Part shown: piece by piece, positions 647-14,424 of the stretch
Layout of the letters: every line of letters starts with the position of its first letter
Position numbering within the stretch: position 1 is the stretch's first letter
Virus record (IMG/VR): IMGVR_UViG_3300032213_000498
Location: 1-23,701 of that record
Strand: one strand, 5' to 3'
Origin: a virus
Length of the DNA stretch: 23,701 bases
Made by a program: the position numbers and the translations under genes
Notes under the pieces: model-generated
Database searches by the model: none
The model's input: the letters and a program-made list of their open reading frames with translations, nothing else
Told to the model about the DNA's origin: nothing

Positions 647-663
647 CACTATATTATATAGTG
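647..663. promoter_or_regulatory. 17-bp palindrome, copy 1 (T-centred)
   Basis: CACTATAT-T-ATATAGTG is a perfect odd palindrome centred on 655. It is preceded by ATTGG, as is copy 4, so these two copies share 21 identical bases. It lies 139 bp upstream of the gene at 803, further from a start codon than copies 3 to 6. It is followed by GGAGAAAAGG, but no plausible gene starts there. Confidence 0.7.
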
Positions 664-802
664 GAGAAAAGGCATCAAAACCCAACACAAATACGCTCAA
701 AAATAGTTCAGGAATAAGTAGAAAAAAGCTGGACTCTCATGTTAAAATTAATCCATTGGTAATCGTCCGATTATCAAAAACCAAAAGAATGGAAACAAAA
801 AA

Positions 803-1459
803 ATGGCAAAAGCAAAAGCAACAAAAGCACCAAAAGTAATCCGCATTAATTCAGCACTAGGAACTAAGTACCAGTTATTAATCGAAAATGGAGAAAAGAT
901 TAATTCCGAAGATTTAGCCTTTATCGCTGAAGTAAATAAAGAAATGCAAAACGGATGGACGCAGGAAGAAGTAATCGAAACATTCGAAAATGAATTAAAG
1001 AATGTAAATGTTCGTCCAACGATTTTACCTTCTCATGTTCCATCAATTAAAACCGCAGCCGAATTAATTTTGGCTTATGCATCCGAAATACAAGAGAAAA
1101 AAGCCTCAGCAGTTCTAAGCATGGCAGTTCGGGTTTTGGCTGATGTTAAAGCAAGTGGAGTATCTGCTCACCTTGCAAAAAATAAAACATGGGCAGAACT
1201 GGAAACCAACACAAAAACAAAAAAGGAATCTCAAGAGAGAGATACCAGAGCAAGTGGAAAAAATAAGGAAACTAAACCGCTTAATTTCGAGGAAGGAATT
1301 ATCAAGTTCCGCAAGTGGTTAAGTATGCCAGCAGTATCAGCAGAAATGAAAAAGGTCATTTTGACCGAACAAGGTCGAAAGGATTTCGGTTTCATTTTGG
1401 CTCAATTCGAACAAGTCAAAATGAATCAGCCAAAAAGCAAGGTAAAAGCCACTATATAA
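803..1459 (+). CDS. Hypothetical basic protein, 218 aa
   Basis: I do not recognise a family. The N-terminus is lysine-rich (MAKAKATKAPKV). The middle (about 75-125) is predicted helical, residues 135-165 form a charged low-complexity linker rich in K, T and E, and the C-terminus is again basic and helical. There is no signal peptide or membrane segment. The composition would suit a nucleic-acid-binding or virion-associated protein; this is inference. The start has only a weak upstream GGA in an A-rich leader, but the next upstream ATG (789) is in another frame. The last codons and stop (ACT ATA TAA) are built from palindrome copy 2, and a strong terminator follows, so this is a single-gene transcription unit. 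Confidence 0.85.
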   Translation: MAKAKATKAPKVIRINSALGTKYQLLIENGEKINSEDLAFIAEVNKEMQNGWTQEEVIETFENELKNVNVRPTILPSHVPSIKTAAELILAYASEIQEKKASAVLSMAVRVLADVKASGVSAHLAKNKTWAELETNTKTKKESQERDTRASGKNKETKPLNFEEGIIKFRKWLSMPAVSAEMKKVILTEQGRKDFGFILAQFEQVKMNQPKSKVKATI

Positions 1460-1466
1460 TATAGTA
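1450..1466. promoter_or_regulatory. 17-bp palindrome, copy 2 (A-centred, at gene end)
   Basis: The perfect core ACTATATAATATAGT lies at 1451-1465, and the outermost pair is C/A instead of C/G. It overlaps the stop codon of the preceding gene (TAA at 1457-1459) and abuts the terminator stem. This copy is not upstream of a start codon, which argues against a purely ribosome-site role for the motif. Confidence 0.7.
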
Positions 1467-1505
1467 AATAACCCTCACCGAGAAATCGGTGGGGGTTATT
1501 TTTTT
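1467..1505 (+). terminator. Rho-independent terminator
   Basis: A 15-bp stem, AATAACCCTCACCGA paired with TCGGTGGGGGTTATT with one T-G wobble, closes on a GAAA tetraloop. It is followed by an uninterrupted T-run to 1505. This is a classic strong intrinsic terminator for the gene ending at 1459. Confidence 0.92.
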
Positions 1506-1685
1506 GCCCAAAAATTTTCCGACACAAACCAACACAAACCTTTTAAGGAGATACGGAGAGTTCAAGAGTTGGAGAGGGGGGCATAATTTTTCAACACAAA
1601 CTGGGATGAGGCGGATTTAGTGAAGCGGGGGATATGGTGGGGCAGATTTGATGAGGGGGTGGTGAAATAAAGTTTTCGTTTTGGC
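1506..1685. other. Intergenic G-rich island without a gene
   Basis: Together with the flanking terminator and promoter this forms a 325-bp gene-free gap. It contains G-runs on the + strand at 1576-1581, 1603-1605, 1627-1631, 1639-1642 and 1655-1659 in an otherwise AT-rich genome. It also carries AACACAAA at 1531 and 1593. Short ATG frames end within five codons. The G-runs could form a long-loop quadruplex; no function can be read from sequence. Confidence 0.5.
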
Positions 1686-1715
1686 TTGACTTACCCTCGG
1701 ATGGGCGAGTATACT
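1686..1715 (+). promoter_or_regulatory. Sigma70/SigA-type promoter
   Basis: The -35 is TTGACT (1686-1691), followed by an 18-bp spacer and a -10 of TATACT (1710-1715). The -35 and -10 each match the consensus at five of six positions. Exactly seven bases separate the -10 from an ATG at 1723, so transcription should start at or next to that ATG. It probably drives the rightward genes from 1785 onward. Confidence 0.75.
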
Positions 1716-1722
1716 AAAGCCA

Positions 1723-1761
1723 ATGGCAAAAATGTTGTCGTTCGTTCACTATATAATATAG
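1723..1761 (+). CDS. Possible leaderless 12-residue leader peptide
   Basis: The frame encodes MAKMLSFVHYII and stops at a TAG inside palindrome copy 3. Its ATG is at the predicted transcription start of the promoter at 1686-1715, which is the geometry of leaderless actinobacterial mRNAs. It has no Shine-Dalgarno. Ribosomes would terminate on top of the palindrome, 23 bases before the ATG of the next gene. It could act as a regulatory upstream reading frame or be fortuitous. Confidence 0.35.
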   Translation: MAKMLSFVHYII

Positions 1762-1763
1762 TG
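1747..1763. promoter_or_regulatory. 17-bp palindrome, copy 3 (A-centred)
   Basis: CACTATATAATATAGTG is perfect and extends by two more pairs on each side to 21 bp (1745-1765), the longest copy. It lies in the 5' leader between the 1686 promoter and the gene at 1785, 21 bases upstream of its ATG. Confidence 0.75.
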
Positions 1764-1784
1764 AAGCGTATATGAAGGGTAAAC

Positions 1785-1931
1785 ATGAGCGTAGATATAG
1801 AAAATCCTCTATATGCTTTAATCCAGCATGTTGAGATAAATGAAAACATATTAGCCGAAGCGCAACGCAAGGCTAAGGTTAAAGAGCAAATTGCTAGGGC
1901 TATGGATAGGGCGAATCATGAGTGGCGATGA
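1785..1931 (+). CDS. Small hypothetical protein, 48 aa
   Basis: The protein begins MSVDIENPLYALIQHVEINE. It has no recognised domain and looks like one long amphipathic helix rich in E, K, A and R, ending in HEWR. AAGGG lies six bases before the ATG, a good ribosome binding site. It is the first sizeable gene after the 1686 promoter and palindrome copy 3. It overlaps the next frame by 14 bp, which suggests coupled translation. Small helical proteins at the start of phage early blocks are often host-takeover factors, but nothing in the sequence shows that here. Confidence 0.7.
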   Translation: MSVDIENPLYALIQHVEINENILAEAQRKAKVKEQIARAMDRANHEWR

Positions 1932-2061
1932 TATTGCATTAGATTTCATGACCGAGCATGAGATAGCCGAGATTATGGCAACGGAAGATATTTTTCAAGT
2001 AGACATGACTAACATTGATGATTTGCTTGAGGATGTTGCTACGGACTCGGACTACGAATAG
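1918..2061 (+). CDS. Small acidic hypothetical protein, 47 aa
   Basis: The protein starts MSGDDIALDFMTEHEIAEIM and is strongly acidic throughout, ending in DSDYE. No family is recognised. AGGG lies seven bases upstream of the ATG, and the frame overlaps the previous gene by 14 bp. Acidic phage micro-proteins can mimic DNA or bind host enzymes; this is only a possibility. The gene ends 10 bases before the tRNA-like element at 2072. Confidence 0.65.
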   Translation: MSGDDIALDFMTEHEIAEIMATEDIFQVDMTNIDDLLEDVATDSDYE

Positions 2062-2071
2062 CAACTGGACA

Positions 2072-2116
2072 GCCCACGCTGGTGTGTAATAGCAGGTTCG
2101 ATTCCTGCGGTGGGCA
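2072..2116 (+). ncRNA. tRNA-like mini-helix (acceptor and T arm only)
   Basis: A canonical T arm, stem GCAGG/CCTGC with loop TTCGATT (2092-2108), is followed by GGTGGGC and a discriminator-like A at 2116. GTGGGC (2110-2115) pairs with GCCCAC at 2072-2077. Only 14 bases lie between the 5' acceptor strand and the T stem, so the D and anticodon arms are missing. The encoded tail is CGG, not CCA. I cannot fold a full tRNA using upstream sequence. It could be a tRNA-mimicking RNA, a tRNA remnant, or a piece of a host tRNA 3' end as in attP sites. Confidence 0.5.
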
Positions 2117-2118
2117 CG

Positions 2119-2133
2119 GTGCCAAATTGGCAC
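2119..2133 (+). promoter_or_regulatory. GTGCC/GGCAC hairpin overlapping palindrome copy 4
   Basis: GTGCC-AAATT-GGCAC forms a five-pair stem. Its right arm shares CAC (2131-2133) with the left end of palindrome copy 4, so in RNA the two stems compete for these bases. A switch controlling the gene at 2157 is possible but unproven. Confidence 0.4.
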
Positions 2134-2147
2134 TATATTATATAGTA
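2131..2147. promoter_or_regulatory. 17-bp palindrome, copy 4 (T-centred)
   Basis: ACTATATTATATAGT (2132-2146) is perfect; the outer pair is C/A. It runs into the ribosome site AAGGA and ends about ten bases before the ATG at 2157. From 2133 to 2153 it is identical over 21 bases to 2528-2548 at copy 5, so palindrome plus ribosome site look like one cassette. Confidence 0.75.
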
Positions 2148-2156
2148 AGGATAAAC

Positions 2157-2288
2157 ATGTATATAGAGATAACAGATACAATAGCAATCATAATTGCGCT
2201 GACTACTAGCACCACGCTGGTAATCACCACCGCAATTAGGAACGCTAAACTAACTCGTGCTTTGCGTGAGTTGAGTGTCCAAAAGTAA
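2157..2288 (+). CDS. Small single-pass membrane protein, 43 aa
   Basis: The protein has one hydrophobic segment at about residues 8-27 (IAIIIALTTSTTLVITTAI), followed by a basic tail (RNAKLTRALRELSVQK), so an N-out/C-in topology is likely. I chose ATG 2157 rather than the upstream in-frame ATG at 2082. AAGGA sits six bases before it, and the longer form would be read through the tRNA-like element and the palindrome. Its function is unknown. Small phage membrane proteins from early blocks often act in superinfection exclusion or host envelope changes, which is only a guess here. The 3' end overlaps the next frame by 14 bp. Confidence 0.7.
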   Translation: MYIEITDTIAIIIALTTSTTLVITTAIRNAKLTRALRELSVQK

Positions 2289-2496
2289 TGTAGATTATGC
2301 CAATGAGATTATCCTGACACTTACTAGAGATGAACTAGAAACTGTCAGGGAATCTCTTAGGCAATTCTCTATACATAATACAAGGCAGGGCTTCGAGGCT
2401 CGTGCTAAGTATGCTGATGACCTACGGGATAAAATCGTAAATGTTATTATCGATAGTGTTCAGCGTAGGGTTGACAAGGCTAAGGAATTAGTCTAA
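2275..2496 (+). CDS. Hypothetical helical protein, 73 aa
   Basis: The protein starts at GTG 2275 inside the previous gene and reads MSKSNVDYANEIILTLTRDE. It is highly charged and predicted almost entirely helical (ELETVRESLRQF, DKIVNVIIDSVQRRVDKAKE), with heptad-like spacing that suggests a coiled coil or a small helical bundle. No family is recognised. There is no strong ribosome site, so translation probably depends on coupling to the membrane-protein gene it overlaps. It ends 31 bases before palindrome copy 5. Confidence 0.65.
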   Translation: MSKSNVDYANEIILTLTRDELETVRESLRQFSIHNTRQGFEARAKYADDLRDKIVNVIIDSVQRRVDKAKELV

Positions 2497-2527
2497 AATG
2501 GTACTAATGGCAGAAGAAATTCTTTTG

Positions 2528-2540
2528 CTATATTATATAG
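2528..2540. promoter_or_regulatory. Palindrome copy 5 (core only, T-centred)
   Basis: The 13-bp core CTATATTATATAG is perfect. The next outward pair is G/T instead of A/T, so this is the weakest of the six copies. It leads directly into TAAGGATAGGGT and the ATG at 2553, repeating the arrangement at copy 4. Confidence 0.65.
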
Positions 2541-2552
2541 TAAGGATAGGGT

Positions 2553-3779
2553 ATGGAAACTGTTAATGAGGTTGAGATAAAGTACGAATGTACTGTCTGC
2601 CACCTTGATTTAGACAGTAGTACTGTTATAGAAACTGATAGCGGTGAGCCTGTCTGTGAAATATGTTCTGTGATATGTATGCGGTGTGATAGCGTCCAAC
2701 ACGCCAACGACATTTATGGAAATGTAAATGGCGAAAGATGGTGTGAGCCTTGCATAGATTCTTATGCTGCATATTGCGATTTATGCGACAGGTATTTCAC
2801 AGGACACCGATATGGTGCTGAGGATACTGGTATGACATTTTGCGAGTCATGCTTTGAGGATAATGTGTCCTATTGTGAGGATTGCGACAATTATTACTAT
2901 GAAGGTTGCAGTTATTCACATGAGGATGAGGAAGATTCTAGGTTGATACATGATTACTCGTACCGACCTGACCCCATCTTCCGCAGTTCCGAGGATGAGA
3001 ATACTAGGTTATATTTTGGTATCGAGGTTGAAACCGAGGTGCGAGGTGGTAGTTTTGATGACCGCAAATACGCAGCCGAGTATGCAGTTAAGTTAGAGCA
3101 ATATAATCTAGCCTATCTAAAATCTGACGGCTCACTTGAGTGCGGATTTGAGATAGTATCACATCCAATGACCCATAATTATTTTATGAAGGATGCAAGT
3201 ATGCTATGGGAAACTATTAGCACACTAAAATCTAATTATAATATGATGGCATGGGGTACAAAAACCTGTGGACTTCATGTGCATATATCTCGTGCTGGGT
3301 TTAATGGTGGTTCACATCAGCATAGATTCCTGCAATTAGTTTACAACAATAAGGACTTCTATGAGGTGCTTGCTGGTAGGTCATCTAGTCATTGGGCTAA
3401 GTTTGATGACAATGTTGACCCTAGTACTGGTAGAAAATCCTTTAAGCACAAGTTTGACCGACATGGTAGCGATAGATACTCTGCGGTCAATACCAACAAT
3501 AGAAATACTTTAGAGATGCGAATCTTTAGAGGTAGTATAAATCCAAGATTCATCAAGTCTGCTATTGACTTAGCGCATGCCAGCGTTGAGTTCACTAGAG
3601 TGATGAGTGTCAAAGAAGTAAGAGAAGGTGGACTATCCTGTCTAAACTTTAGGCAGTACATAGAGAGTAAGTCTGAGTTATATCCATCTCTCAATGATAG
3701 AATAAAAATACACAAAGATGTATTAACTAGGATAGAAAGGAAAGAGCATGTGTCTACTAGTAGTAAGTTCCCCGAATAG
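2553..3779 (+). CDS. Amidoligase (COOH-NH2 ligase) with N-terminal zinc ribbons
   Basis: The protein is a predicted ATP-dependent ligase of the glutamine-synthetase-like amidoligase family (Amidoligase_2 type), which joins a carboxylate to an amine. The first 120 residues carry seven CxxC pairs (13/16, 35/38, 42/45, 64/67, 75/78, 97/100, 108/111), so several tandem zinc ribbons. The ligase domain follows at about 150-370. It shows FGIEVE (155-160), a SDGSLE stretch with a following EIVS, CGLHVHIS, and a C-terminal RYSAVN...TLEMRIFRGS block, all typical motifs. AAGGA before ATG 2553 and palindrome copy 5 support the start. The 3' end overlaps the glutamine amidotransferase gene by 32 bp, so the two products probably work together. 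The substrate is unknown. Confidence 0.85.
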   Translation: METVNEVEIKYECTVCHLDLDSSTVIETDSGEPVCEICSVICMRCDSVQHANDIYGNVNGERWCEPCIDSYAAYCDLCDRYFTGHRYGAEDTGMTFCESCFEDNVSYCEDCDNYYYEGCSYSHEDEEDSRLIHDYSYRPDPIFRSSEDENTRLYFGIEVETEVRGGSFDDRKYAAEYAVKLEQYNLAYLKSDGSLECGFEIVSHPMTHNYFMKDASMLWETISTLKSNYNMMAWGTKTCGLHVHISRAGFNGGSHQHRFLQLVYNNKDFYEVLAGRSSSHWAKFDDNVDPSTGRKSFKHKFDRHGSDRYSAVNTNNRNTLEMRIFRGSINPRFIKSAIDLAHASVEFTRVMSVKEVREGGLSCLNFRQYIESKSELYPSLNDRIKIHKDVLTRIERKEHVSTSSKFPE

Positions 3780-4563
3780 CACACCACGCAAGAAGGATTT
3801 AGATAATGCTTCTTGTAATAATCCGCATGGCTTTGGCTATGCCGTAATTGCTGGTAATAAGATTATTACTGGCAAGGGTATGTCTGCTAAAAAAGTAATT
3901 AAGGAGTTCCTTGCAGTACGCAAGCAGTATCCAAATAGTTATGCTATGTATCATGCTAGATTTGCAACACATGGCGTAAAGAATGAGGAGAACTGTCATC
4001 CATTCAAGGTAGGTGGTAGCGACCTTACATACCTAGCCCATAATGGCATATTACCTGTACATATTGAGCCTACTGATAAGCGTAGTGATACTCGTATATT
4101 TGCCGAGGACATCCTGCCATCAATGGGAGGTATTACAGCATTAGATAACCCTAATCTATATGGGATGATACAGAAGTGGTCTCTCGGTAGTAAGATTGCG
4201 GTCTTTACCTTAGACCCTAATGCTGAGTATGACTGCTATATTATCAATGAGGACACAGGTGCTTGGGATAATGATGGCAACTGGTGGTCTAATGATTCAT
4301 ACAAGAGCGACAACAACTGGGGTAAGTACTTCAGGCAATACGATTACGAGGCTGCTGATGATGCCGAGTATGCTTGTATGATGTGTGGTATAGATGTACT
4401 TGAAGACGGCAATATATACTACTGTGAAAACTGTGGTTCATGTTTTGATTGCAGTATGATAGTAAATGATAGTTGCCTATGCTGGTCTCCTGAGAGGGAT
4501 GAACTAGCCCGACACAAACAAACGACAGGAGCGTATGATGGACAGTATGACTTTGGCTTCTAA
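3748..4563 (+). CDS. Class II glutamine amidotransferase with C-terminal zinc ribbon
   Basis: The predicted role is hydrolysis of glutamine to release ammonia for a partner enzyme, here most likely the amidoligase. Ntn-hydrolase features are clear. The chain begins MCLL, so Cys2 becomes the N-terminal nucleophile once Met is removed. HARFATHG matches the GlmS/PurF-type arginine motif, and ENCHPF, LAHNGIL and SDTRIFAEDIL follow in the usual order. The domain spans about residues 2-170. The C-terminal 100 residues are acidic and hold CMMC, CENC, CFDC and CLCW-type cysteines, a zinc-binding module that echoes the partner's N-terminus. AAGGAAAG before ATG 3748 is a good ribosome site, and the need for Met-Cys fixes the start. 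Confidence 0.88.
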   Translation: MCLLVVSSPNSTPRKKDLDNASCNNPHGFGYAVIAGNKIITGKGMSAKKVIKEFLAVRKQYPNSYAMYHARFATHGVKNEENCHPFKVGGSDLTYLAHNGILPVHIEPTDKRSDTRIFAEDILPSMGGITALDNPNLYGMIQKWSLGSKIAVFTLDPNAEYDCYIINEDTGAWDNDGNWWSNDSYKSDNNWGKYFRQYDYEAADDAEYACMMCGIDVLEDGNIYYCENCGSCFDCSMIVNDSCLCWSPERDELARHKQTTGAYDGQYDFGF

Positions 4564-4681
4564 GGAAGAAGTCAGAAAAGTAATCATAGAGTTAATCTCT
4601 ATCGCCAATTTGACTGACGAAAGAGATGACGCTATAATTGCTAATGCACGACTACTACTACAACAACTATACACTATATAA
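4538..4681 (+). CDS. Small helical hypothetical protein, 47 aa
   Basis: The protein begins MDSMTLASKEEVRKVIIELI and is predicted helical and leucine-rich, ending LLLQQLYTI. No family is recognised. AGGAG lies six bases before ATG 4538; an ATG three bases upstream is too close to it. The frame overlaps the amidotransferase 3' end by 26 bp, so it may be coupled to that operon. The final codons ACT ATA TAA are the left half of palindrome copy 6, exactly as at the end of the 803-1459 gene. Confidence 0.6.
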   Translation: MDSMTLASKEEVRKVIIELISIANLTDERDDAIIANARLLLQQLYTI

Positions 4682-4688
4682 TATAGTG
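4672..4688. promoter_or_regulatory. 17-bp palindrome, copy 6 (A-centred)
   Basis: CACTATATAATATAGTG is perfect over 17 bp. It carries the TAA stop of the upstream small gene on its left and leads into AAAGGAG and the GTG start at 4701 on its right. It is the last full copy in the window. Confidence 0.75.
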
Positions 4689-4700
4689 AAAGGAGAGCAA

Positions 4701-4928
4701 GTGAAACTAAAAGTACATCACCCAAGTGGTGATGTTATAGCGGAGGTATATGATTTTGCTGCTGGCGCATTACTGATGAGCCTATACGGAGAAGGCTCAC
4801 ATATATCATATAGAGGCAAAGCACTATGGCGTGAAGGCATAGATGGCGAAGGTGCCGAAAGTTATGATACAACAAGCATGACAATAGATAGCAGACTAAT
4901 AGAGATGGGAGTACAACTTGACGGGTGA
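4701..4928 (+). CDS. Hypothetical protein, 75 aa
   Basis: Starting at GTG 4701, the chain reads MKLKVHHPSGDVIAEVYDFA and is predicted to be mainly beta-strand with an acidic middle. No family is recognised. The GTG has AGGAG five bases upstream. The alternative upstream ATG (4638) would be read through the previous gene and the palindrome and is rejected. It overlaps the next frame by 11 bp. Confidence 0.7.
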   Translation: MKLKVHHPSGDVIAEVYDFAAGALLMSLYGEGSHISYRGKALWREGIDGEGAESYDTTSMTIDSRLIEMGVQLDG

Positions 4929-5160
4929 AGTATCAATTTCTGAAATCATGAATAAATACATGATATCATCTGACGGAAAATTTGAAACTGGATTTTCTAA
5001 ATCTATCATGTTAAATGATGGAACTAATCAATACTCAGGTAGACTACATTGGAACTCCAATGACGGCTATTCCATGGGTTGGGATACATCTGCGCCACCT
5101 GAGGCAGACCGACCTGAGTTTGAATATGTACTCGATTGCATAACAGACTTGGACCACTAA
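4918..5160 (+). CDS. Hypothetical protein, 80 aa
   Basis: The likely start is TTG 4918, which has GGGAG six bases upstream. The first internal ATG (4948) has no ribosome site. The protein is soluble and acidic, with a predicted beta-rich middle (YSGRLHWNSNDGYSMGWD). No family is recognised. It overlaps the previous gene by 11 bp and shares one base with the next start (TAATG), so it belongs to a coupled series of small genes. Confidence 0.6.
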   Translation: MTGEVSISEIMNKYMISSDGKFETGFSKSIMLNDGTNQYSGRLHWNSNDGYSMGWDTSAPPEADRPEFEYVLDCITDLDH

Positions 5161-11884: not shown

Positions 11885-12493
11885 TTATCCTTCTTTCTTT
11901 ACAGAGAATTGACAATGAGCGGTGAGTCCGCACATGTACTGACAAGAATTTGTGTTGGGCAAGAATATACCTGCCTTCCTAGCCTTGTCAAAACCTTTAA
12001 TCAAGAACTCCATTCTGTCGTATGTATATCCTGATAAGTCAACCATTTCTACAGTATTACTAGCACGAGACATGTAATAGTTACCCCAGTTAACACTTAT
12101 GTTAAAGGTTTGCTCTAAACCAAGTTTGTAAAAACCTAACTGTAAAGTGCTAGTTGGAGTATTTTTTGATGTCTTCAAATCAACTATTACTAATTGACCA
12201 TCAACATCAAAAATTCTATCTATAACCATCTTGACCGGAACATCAGCCACTACTGGCATCAGTTCTAATTCAATTGCTGGTCGACCATCTGGTGCTGTCC
12301 AAATCTTCCAATTAGGATTAGCCTTACGCCAATTGATATAATCCTCAACCCACATAGGTCCTGCAGTTTGCCAAAACTTTACATCTTCCTTGTTAGGAGA
12401 CATTTTGGTAGCCCTGCCACCTACACGAGCATTGGTTAAATCTATACCTTCAGATTCTTTAGACCATGCTTGGTCCCATAGATGCTGGCTCAT
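11885..12493 (-). CDS. Cas4/RecB-like exonuclease, C-terminal part
   Basis: This is the PD-(D/E)XK catalytic core of a Cas4-like exonuclease. Asp92 (MVIDRIFDVDG) and Asp105-x-Lys107 (VDLKTSK) are the active-site strands, followed by QLGFYKLGLEQ, the RecB-family helix. At the end Cys184, Cys188 and Cys194 are three of the four iron-sulfur ligands. The fourth, and the His of motif I, are in the separate upstream gene. ATG 12493 has GGGAG five bases upstream and overlaps the previous stop as ATGA, so it can initiate on its own. In most phages these parts are a single chain of about the same total length. Confidence 0.82.
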   Translation of the reverse strand: MSQHLWDQAWSKESEGIDLTNARVGGRATKMSPNKEDVKFWQTAGPMWVEDYINWRKANPNWKIWTAPDGRPAIELELMPVVADVPVKMVIDRIFDVDGQLVIVDLKTSKNTPTSTLQLGFYKLGLEQTFNISVNWGNYYMSRASNTVEMVDLSGYTYDRMEFLIKGFDKARKAGIFLPNTNSCQYMCGLTAHCQFSVKKEG

Positions 12494-12681
12494 AGATTCT
12501 CCCTATCATACATTTCTGTTGCTAGGTGAAATGCTGAACCACCAACTGACCAAACAGATGGCTCCTCTTGCTTCTCCAATAATCTACCAAGATAGTATTG
12601 ATATCCACAAGTTAGGTAAGTGCTGAAAGCACTGTACGACATGTGTTCAGGTAACGTATATTCTTCTAGTTTGATTGACAT
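12490..12681 (-). CDS. Cas4/RecB-like exonuclease, N-terminal part
   Basis: The chain MSIKLEEYTLPEHMSYSAFS contains the typical family opening: SYSAFSTYLTCGYQYYLGRL with Cys25, the first iron-sulfur ligand, then GGSAFHLATE with His52 of motif I. It stops after 63 residues, where homologues continue. I place the start at ATG 12681, not 12687. The promoter -10 lies exactly seven bases upstream of 12681, which predicts a leaderless message beginning at this codon. It is the first gene of the leftward replication operon. Confidence 0.75.
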   Translation of the reverse strand: MSIKLEEYTLPEHMSYSAFSTYLTCGYQYYLGRLLEKQEEPSVWSVGGSAFHLATEMYDRENL

Positions 12682-12688
12682 TGGCATG

Positions 12689-13745: not shown

Positions 13746-13858
13746 ATTGACATCCATCCTTCGTATTTTGCATCTGGGTTGTCCTTAAGCCATTGCTCTC
13801 TTAATTGATTCTGGTATTCCCAGTCAATTTCATTACTAATTATTTCTTCCTTATCCAT
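13742..13858 (-). CDS. Small acidic hypothetical protein, 38 aa
   Basis: The protein begins MDKEEIISNEIDWEYQNQLR and ends DAKYEGWMSI. It is predicted to be one charged helix with several aromatic residues. It overlaps the methyltransferase gene by 19 bp, with AAGGG about nine bases before its ATG, and gives its TGA to the endolysin start in an ATGA overlap. It may mainly couple endolysin translation to the upstream gene. Confidence 0.58.
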   Translation of the reverse strand: MDKEEIISNEIDWEYQNQLREQWLKDNPDAKYEGWMSI

Positions 13859-14424
13859 ACTTGCCATCCCTTGCGGATTATCTCAATATCATCTTTATGT
13901 TTTGTTAGCCACGCATCTATTGCTGGTTTAGGGTTCTTGTCTGTGCCATCTGGATGGTCCCACTCATAGTCATCAAATGCCATAATGCCACCAGGCTTAA
14001 GCAAGTCCCAAGATAGGTCAGCATCTAAAGTAACTGACTCTGGTAGATGGTCTCCATCAATGTAGATGAAGTCATACTTAACATCTCTGTGTTCCTTCAG
14101 CCAATCACCACTAAATGCTTTATGTGATGCTACCTTTTTAAGATAAGGCTTTACCTGTTCCTTGTATGCCTCTTGCACATCATCCCAATTGTAGACTGAT
14201 TCATGAGCCAAGTTGCCACACCAAGGGTCTATGTCTACTAGTAAAGATGTTGGGTCTGTAAGAATATTTTTTAGTAACCAAACAGATGCGTTGCCAGTAA
14301 AGACACCTATCTGTAAGAACTTAAGATTCTTTTTGCCCTTAAACTCTGCTAGTCCATTCTCAAAGTCTTGGACTGTTGCATTGTCATAAAACCATTTTGG
14401 AAAGTTATCTGTTTTCATCCCCAT
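13840..14424 (-). CDS. Class I SAM-dependent methyltransferase
   Basis: The protein has a Rossmann-type methyltransferase fold of the Methyltransf_24 kind. Motif I is FLQIGVFTGNAS (36-46), the acidic strand end is LLVDIDPW (61-68), YDFIYIDGDH lies at 117-126, and the post-strand loop is GGIMAFDDYEW. This family usually methylates small molecules or sugars; DNA-methylase motifs (DPPY/NPPY) are absent. A virion, cell-wall or glycan substrate is therefore more likely than DNA, though this is inference. It sits between a tail-associated membrane protein and the lysis genes, an unusual place for a DNA-acting enzyme. ATG 14418 is an alternative start. Confidence 0.78.
   Translation of the reverse strand: MGMKTDNFPKWFYDNATVQDFENGLAEFKGKKNLKFLQIGVFTGNASVWLLKNILTDPTSLLVDIDPWCGNLAHESVYNWDDVQEAYKEQVKPYLKKVASHKAFSGDWLKEHRDVKYDFIYIDGDHLPESVTLDADLSWDLLKPGGIMAFDDYEWDHPDGTDKNPKPAIDAWLTKHKDDIEIIRKGWQVWIRKK

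Follow-up and report, generated by a model that had tools for sequence, protein, structure and literature searches.

Amidoligases encoded beside class II glutamine amidotransferases have been noted since 2009 and occur in phages of Mycobacterium, freshwater phages and OM43 phages as well as in clostridial genomes; Iyer et al. 2009 reportedly made a prediction on the amidoligase cassette of phiEco32/LUZ24-like phages. Elsewhere the pair has been recorded among auxiliary genes, with wall modification, superinfection exclusion and secondary metabolites as suggested roles (PMC10580990, which refers to Iyer et al. 2009 and the Marvin paper; PMC5498523). The literature that we searched yielded no biochemistry on any member of the family. 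The window analysed here, a tailed-phage virus record of 23.7 kb, carries a variant of this arrangement. What is new is not the pair but the branch of ligases with N-terminal zinc fingers and the rule by which such ligases keep their partner; the fingers themselves may already be mentioned by Iyer et al. 2009 or in the Marvin genome paper.

In phage Marvin and other cluster S phages, as in the window, a ligase (gp105 in Marvin) is followed on the same strand by a class II amidotransferase (gp106), the ligase bearing N-terminal CxxC pairs and the amidotransferase the same C-terminal cysteine pattern. The Marvin proteins are, however, ~28% and 34% identical to those of the window; the ligase zinc region is shorter, the C-terminus is longer and there is no FDF-type tail. 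The OM43 phages MEP401 and MEP402 (PMC10580990) share an overlapping pair and a similar FDF tail on the amidotransferase, but their ligases have ~300 residues before the catalytic domain with two CxxC pairs only, and their amidotransferases lack the cysteine module. The phiEco32/LUZ24-like cassette, represented by UFV-P2, likewise combines an Amidoligase_2 with a class II amidotransferase within a block of early genes, yet its ligase is without fingers, falls on the other side of the family tree and has genes for COOH-NH2_lig, ATP-grasp and cyclotransferase proteins beside it. Zinc-free Amidoligase_2 proteins of Bacillota and phages have the same catalytic domain and active-site residues as the window ligase, but no fingers and mostly a cyclotransferase instead of the amidotransferase.

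Two further systems bear comparison. MurT-GatD resembles the proposed window pair in principle, an ATP-dependent ligase and a glutaminase together putting an amide on a carboxylate; it is built from a Mur-ligase fold and a class I glutaminase, unrelated to the folds of the window. A class I (CobB/CobQ-like) glutaminase of the MurT-GatD type was not encountered, the window partner having the class II Ntn fold. EgtA/EgtC, acting in ergothioneine synthesis, consists of a gamma-glutamyl ligase from the glutamine-synthetase superfamily and a partner of the class II Ntn type; unlike the proposed pair, EgtC hydrolyses a gamma-glutamyl bond, and zinc fingers are lacking. Further ergothioneine genes were not recognised in the window.

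Active sites and zinc fingers of the pair

Both genes are present exactly as the original prediction had described them, a ligase with seven N-terminal CxxC pairs overlapping by 32 bp a Met-Cys Ntn-type amidotransferase with a C-terminal cysteine-rich module (Table 1). Neither ORF is a chance reading frame, and purifying selection acts on both (dN/dS 0.12-0.22 for the ligase and 0.07-0.23 for the amidotransferase, against seven relatives and with the overlap excluded). The overlap likely reflects translational coupling; it is kept in the closest clade, whereas in more distant relatives the genes merely abut.

Table 1. Features of the amidoligase/amidotransferase locus, in window coordinates
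Feature	Position	Strand	Basis
One of six copies of the 15-bp palindrome ACTATATWATATAGT	2527..2541	.	11 bp upstream of ligase start codon
Amidoligase_2 (COOH-NH2 ligase, glutamine-synthetase fold), 408 aa	2553..3779	+	PF12224, phrog_16683, model
Seven CxxC pairs, residues 13-111, putative LIM-like tandem zinc fingers	2589..2885	+	Cys conservation, profile matches
Catalytic amidoligase domain, residues ~150-372	3000..3668	+	Conserved residues, fold match
Overlap of both reading frames, 32 bp	3748..3779	+	ORF coordinates
Class II (Ntn) glutamine amidotransferase, 271 aa, Met-Cys start	3748..4563	+	phrog_25883, fold
Ntn glutaminase domain, C2, R71, T74, H75, N99, G100, D114	3748..4293	+	Invariant in 44 pairs
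C-terminal 8-Cys module CxxC-x12-CxxC-x2-CxxC-x7-CxC	4375..4482	+	Cys conservation
Extreme C-terminal tail GAYDGQYDFGF	4528..4560	+	Conserved

The ligase matches PF12224 (Amidoligase_2) with an E-value of 9.7e-8 and 32.6 bits, above the curated cut-off of 22, and phrog_16683 at 2e-30. Over residues ~150-408, its AlphaFold model (pLDDT 85.5) resembles YbdK (VIA Z 12.7), plant glutamate-cysteine ligase (12.2) and glutamine synthetases (10.5-11.9); the alignments to PDB structures covered residues 148-408 only, that is, the protein without its N-terminal fingers. The catalytic residues (E158-x-E160, D192, S194, E200, H242-x-H244, N313, T319, E321-x-R323) are invariant in 8/8 zinc-finger clusters of the family at 50% identity; in the 18 other clusters they are likewise unchanged in each row without a gap, except that position 319 holds Thr or Ser. 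We take them to be the ExE, GxHxH and ExR motifs of glutamine synthetase, which provide metal and ATP ligands.

For the amidotransferase, the match to phrog_25883 is strong (1.6e-41), whereas the Pfam class II GATase models reach E ~2e-4 and stay below their cut-offs (20.7 against 23 and 21.1 against 27); a clostridial partner amidotransferase passes the Pfam GATase cut-off with 54.6 bits. The fold is GlmS-like: Foldseek matched the model to GFAT (E 6e-7), and VIA Z was 13.9 for the GlmS glutaminase domain and 13.0 for EgtC. NCBIfam returned nothing beyond partial GlmS/PurF-like matches and a weak match of zinc-ribbon type to B12-dependent ribonucleotide reductase. Across a wider set, R71, N99 and G100 occur in essentially all of 208 amidotransferases, D114 in 185 and C2 in 186/186 of those aligning there. 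Loss of the ligase glutamates or of Cys2, which the original prediction had proposed to look for by alignment, is thus not seen. Since the active-site residues and folds are conserved, both enzymes look active, as far as sequence and models can predict.

The ligase CxxC pairs are C13/16, C35/38, C42/45, C64/67, C75/78, C97/100 and C108/111. In a 44-sequence alignment 12 of the 14 cysteines are invariant, C111 is nearly so and C78 is sometimes H or E. They are spaced CX2C-X18-CX2C-X3-CX2C-X18-CX2C, followed by two further units, one of them partial; compared with the LIM pattern (PF00412), CX2C-X16-23-[HC]X2C-X2-CX2C-X16-21-CX2[CHD], the middle is one residue longer. A profile of 24 N-terminal sequences retrieved LIM structures first (LMO4, E 0.004), Pfam LIM matches 5/24 of the family N-termini (best 3e-6) with the window copy below a match, and UniProt already names a viral relative 'LIM domain containing protein'. 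LIM domains are mostly protein-binding. Hence the fingers, if the LIM-like assignment holds (it is itself weak), are more likely to serve protein recognition than nucleic-acid binding, and the nucleic-acid or ribosome binding once envisaged for the zinc modules becomes less likely. Most plausibly, they would bind the amidotransferase and/or a target protein. LIM is a domain that is usually regarded as eukaryotic.

The eight cysteines of the amidotransferase module (residues 210, 213, 226, 229, 232, 235, 243 and 245) are all invariant in 44 sequences and lie in a low-confidence part of the model. The module recurs in Marvin gp106 and on two mycobacterial plasmids, and is absent or reduced in the amidotransferases of Clostridia, OM43 and Manatee Spring; in these sequences it is confined to actinobacterial-type loci. 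Matched zinc modules docking to each other, as had been suggested, are therefore no general device, the clostridial, OM43 and Manatee Spring partners having no comparable cysteine module although their ligases do carry CxxC pairs. Nor did a direct hhalign comparison of the cysteine module with parts of the ligase zinc region give significant similarity (P 0.025 at best, probability ~1%), and mutual docking was rejected. Another candidate contact is the conserved C-terminal tail, which in its Y[DN]xx[FY]DF-type form is found in most of the freshwater clade and in the OM43 amidotransferases, the latter without the cysteine module.

Partner genes across the amidoligase family

Ligase and amidotransferase are adjacent in more than 150 related loci. 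The ligase lies directly upstream in 79/80 IMG/VR loci anchored on the amidotransferase, the exception being cut by the contig start; viral loci anchored on the ligase and lacking the partner all end at a contig edge, and in clostridial loci the partner is next door in 17/18. The same arrangement is seen in cluster S mycobacteriophages, OM43 phages, a Manatee Spring phage, mycobacterial plasmids and clostridial genomes. As queries against IMG/VR, the Manatee Spring ligase retrieved one further locus and the Christensenellaceae ligase none. In a comparison of 20 divergent loci, the distances of the ligases correlate with those of the amidotransferases (Mantel r 0.73, 0/2000 permutations). The gene-neighbourhood survey called for originally thus finds the two genes co-occurring almost without exception, and the proposal of a co-inherited ligase and glutaminase-type partner is borne out.

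Our survey comprised 253 loci, including amidoligases from 24/299 Bacillota genomes and from annotated phages and plasmids, its queries biased to zinc-finger members; a partner was counted when an amidotransferase lay within 500 bp, in clusters at 50% identity. The ligase tree separates a zinc side from a zinc-free side with 99/99 support. At 50% identity an amidotransferase stands beside the ligase in 8/8 zinc clusters against 3/18 zinc-free clusters (Fisher 1e-4), and a gamma-glutamylcyclotransferase is near 0/8 and 10/18, respectively (Fisher 0.009). At 70% identity the amidotransferase accompanies 41/41 zinc clusters and 4/22 zinc-free ones. Among the zinc-free Bacillota loci, for which flanks of only ~1.4 kb were available, the cyclotransferase is found in 25/29 and the amidotransferase in none. 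By tree and neighbourhood, the zinc-finger ligases are thus a branch of their own, in which the amidotransferase is retained almost without exception. With two branches that have different partner enzymes, an experimenter knows which pairs to compare.

In keeping with a coupling of fingers to partner, the ligase of C. difficile phage AR1086-1 sits inside the zinc clade with neither fingers nor partner. The coupling has its exceptions: one clostridial locus (L166) has a zinc-finger ligase and no adjacent amidotransferase, and a second, zinc-free ligase at another locus (L188) is on a long branch, its placement unsure. Conversely, the zinc-free ligases of UFV-P2, Salgado, Ottawa and APT65 have an amidotransferase, so the fingers are not needed for pairing. 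Since the zinc side is mainly one deep clade, the link between zinc and partner does not represent many independent events.

The Bacillota combination of a zinc-free Amidoligase_2 with gamma-glutamylcyclotransferase (L206, L210-L227, L233-L238) forms a compact two-gene unit of its own, for which no tested function was found in the literature searched. At several clostridial zinc-finger loci (L171, L177 and others) a DUF960 (PF06124) gene lies directly upstream of the pair, and at other clostridial loci a recombinase-like gene precedes it; either neighbour is a possible third component in mobile elements. In the window, the neighbouring genes at 2275-2496, 4638-4928 and 4918-5160 were considered as substrate peptide or third subunit and rejected, being present in the freshwater clade and its nearest relative only and missing from clostridial loci; as they are not kept beyond these, only the pair itself travels. 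Neither protein, nor either of two clostridial relatives, had a match in PADLOC-DB, and on that basis a known anti-phage defence system was rejected as the identity of the pair.

Proposed reaction and competing readings

We favour, at a probability of roughly 55%, the reading that ligase and amidotransferase are the subunits of a single enzyme that forms amides and depends on glutamine, with an acceptor other than free glutamate, likely a protein or peptide, and with fingers that bind the partner or the target. Cys2 of the amidotransferase would hydrolyse glutamine to give ammonia, while the glutamine-synthetase-fold ligase would use Mg-ATP to activate a carboxylate as acyl phosphate and join it to the ammonia delivered by the amidotransferase, forming an amide. 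The acceptor carboxylate would reside on a protein or peptide, and the LIM-like fingers would hold the amidotransferase and/or the target protein. Free glutamate is an unlikely acceptor because making glutamine from it with glutamine-derived ammonia would be futile, and the LIM-like fingers in turn favour a protein or peptide. Gene identities, intact active sites, purifying selection, co-inheritance and the link between fingers and partner are shown by the data, while a physical complex, the passage of ammonia, a protein or peptide as target and an advantage for the phage are inferred.

It is tempting to speculate that the fingers pick a host or phage protein and that the pair amidates its Glu, Asp or C-terminal carboxylate during infection, an extension that we consider tentative and on balance unlikely. 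To our knowledge, post-translational protein amidation of such kind has not been assigned to phages. Small pairs of the Marvin gp105/gp106 type can be expressed in M. smegmatis, so that the function of such pairs is open to direct testing.

Class II glutaminase-fold proteins can also work without an ammonia acceptor, EgtC being a gamma-glutamyl hydrolase, and the VIA Z of 13.0 for EgtC, within 1 of that for GlmS, counts against the two-subunit amidation reading. The main rival builds on this: as in EgtA/EgtC or PuuA/PuuD, the ligase would join the gamma-carboxyl of glutamate to an amine and the Ntn protein, which fits EgtC about as well as GlmS/GFAT, would cleave the product later. Among the solved structures nearest in fold to the ligase are YbdK and plant glutamate-cysteine ligase, both gamma-glutamyl ligases, and the zinc-free relatives pair with a cyclotransferase that acts on gamma-glutamyl compounds, as at the Bacillota loci counted above; in the zinc clade the amidotransferase is present and the cyclotransferase missing, which looks like a replacement of one by the other. 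Four zinc-free loci (UFV-P2, Salgado, Ottawa and Vibrio 172P1), however, carry both enzymes, which are therefore not simple substitutes, and tagging of a small molecule would leave the conserved LIM-like array without a role. We regard such tagging and removal as unlikely. Characterised enzymes related to the ligase by fold frequently couple amino acids or amines instead of ammonia, and the zinc-free branch can do without the amidotransferase; the ligase might accordingly use its own amine or amino acid while the amidotransferase merely supplies a metabolite (e.g. glutamate) or acts separately. That the two genes of the zinc clade are adjacent, overlap and diverge in a correlated way speaks against this division of labour, to which we give very little credence.

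Modification of the cell wall to block superinfection would have the pair amidate a peptide-stem carboxylate. In the cytoplasmic precursors of peptidoglycan, the carboxylates of D-Glu and diaminopimelate are free, and MurT-GatD amidates them in some hosts. The idea was put forward for phiEco32 and taken up again for OM43 and Pseudoalteromonas phages (PMC10580990; PMC5498523). The phiEco32/LUZ24-type cassette is the literature basis for the peptidoglycan, superinfection and metabolite roles that the original prediction suggested, but the idea was built on the other branch than the zinc-finger one, the ligase of the LUZ24-like cassette (UFV-P2) sitting across the tree. The additional genes of that cassette were sought in a near-complete 40-kb relative, the window being a fragment, and neither cyclotransferase nor COOH-NH2_lig nor ATP-grasp was found among its 41 scanned ORFs, a set from which a 1683-aa ORF was left out. 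Profile searches revealed no transport or wall-binding domain in either protein, and this reading, drawn by analogy, seems to us improbable. More remote is the proposal that the pair amidates a carboxylated DNA or RNA base while the fingers bind nucleic acid. Several zinc fingers in a phage setting would suit it, as would a conserved tRNA-like element ~430 bp upstream and a DUF1599 'nucleotide modification associated' gene in the window, but the fingers look like LIM domains and not like a typical nucleic-acid binder, and no base-carboxylating enzyme was recognised in the scanned parts of the window or in the Pfam list of the relative; we judge modification of nucleic acids or nucleotides decidedly improbable.

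Phage and gene setting

The phage is a freshwater one. An actinobacterial host is indicated as likely by a WhiB-like gene in the window and by a conserved 655-aa gene whose nearest isolates are Streptomyces phages. The ligase and amidotransferase genes belong to a cluster of small + strand genes and are probably expressed early.

The palindrome upstream of the ligase is a likely regulatory site of the transcript. This odd palindrome, ACTATATWATATAGT, has six copies across window positions 648-4687, within the + strand gene cluster, where 0.02 would be expected. Related phages (loci L002-L110) have different perfect odd palindromes with self-complementary arms, in 3-10 copies each; 12 distinct words were found in 64/110 loci against 0 in shuffles, and ~60% of the relatives' palindromes lie at most 60 bp upstream of an ORF start. 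The central A/T does not keep one orientation, so the palindrome is not simply a -10 box; the set looks like a diversifying family of operators or RNA hairpins, perhaps tied to heteroimmunity.

The tRNA-like element is a minihelix at window 2072-2117 (+), found at a similar position in many relatives. It consists of an acceptor-like stem and a perfect T arm with a TTCRANT loop, without D or anticodon arm. Its stems covary, with 95% of cells paired and two-sided changes in 9/13 pairs, and 0/500 shuffles were as high. ARAGORN called no tRNA in the window or in 15 relatives' loci, and Rfam gave a below-threshold match only, on the opposite strand.

Elsewhere in the window, a degenerate AATG tetranucleotide array of ~22 copies occupies positions 431-519 at the left end. 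A methyltransferase-like gene (phrog_2675; 13843-14424, -) lies between lysis-region and tail genes. A PD-(D/E)XK-type exonuclease (11888-12687, -) is divided into two ORFs with a 4-bp overlap, matching consecutive stretches (1-62 and 88-287) of phrog_1870; the split may be natural, since two members match in the 40-kb relative as well. That relative (L239/L240) additionally has an ORF matching the Proteasome/HslV-family peptidases (PF00227 at 1e-4, phrog_1040 in the 6e-26 range), by these matches perhaps a head-maturation protease.
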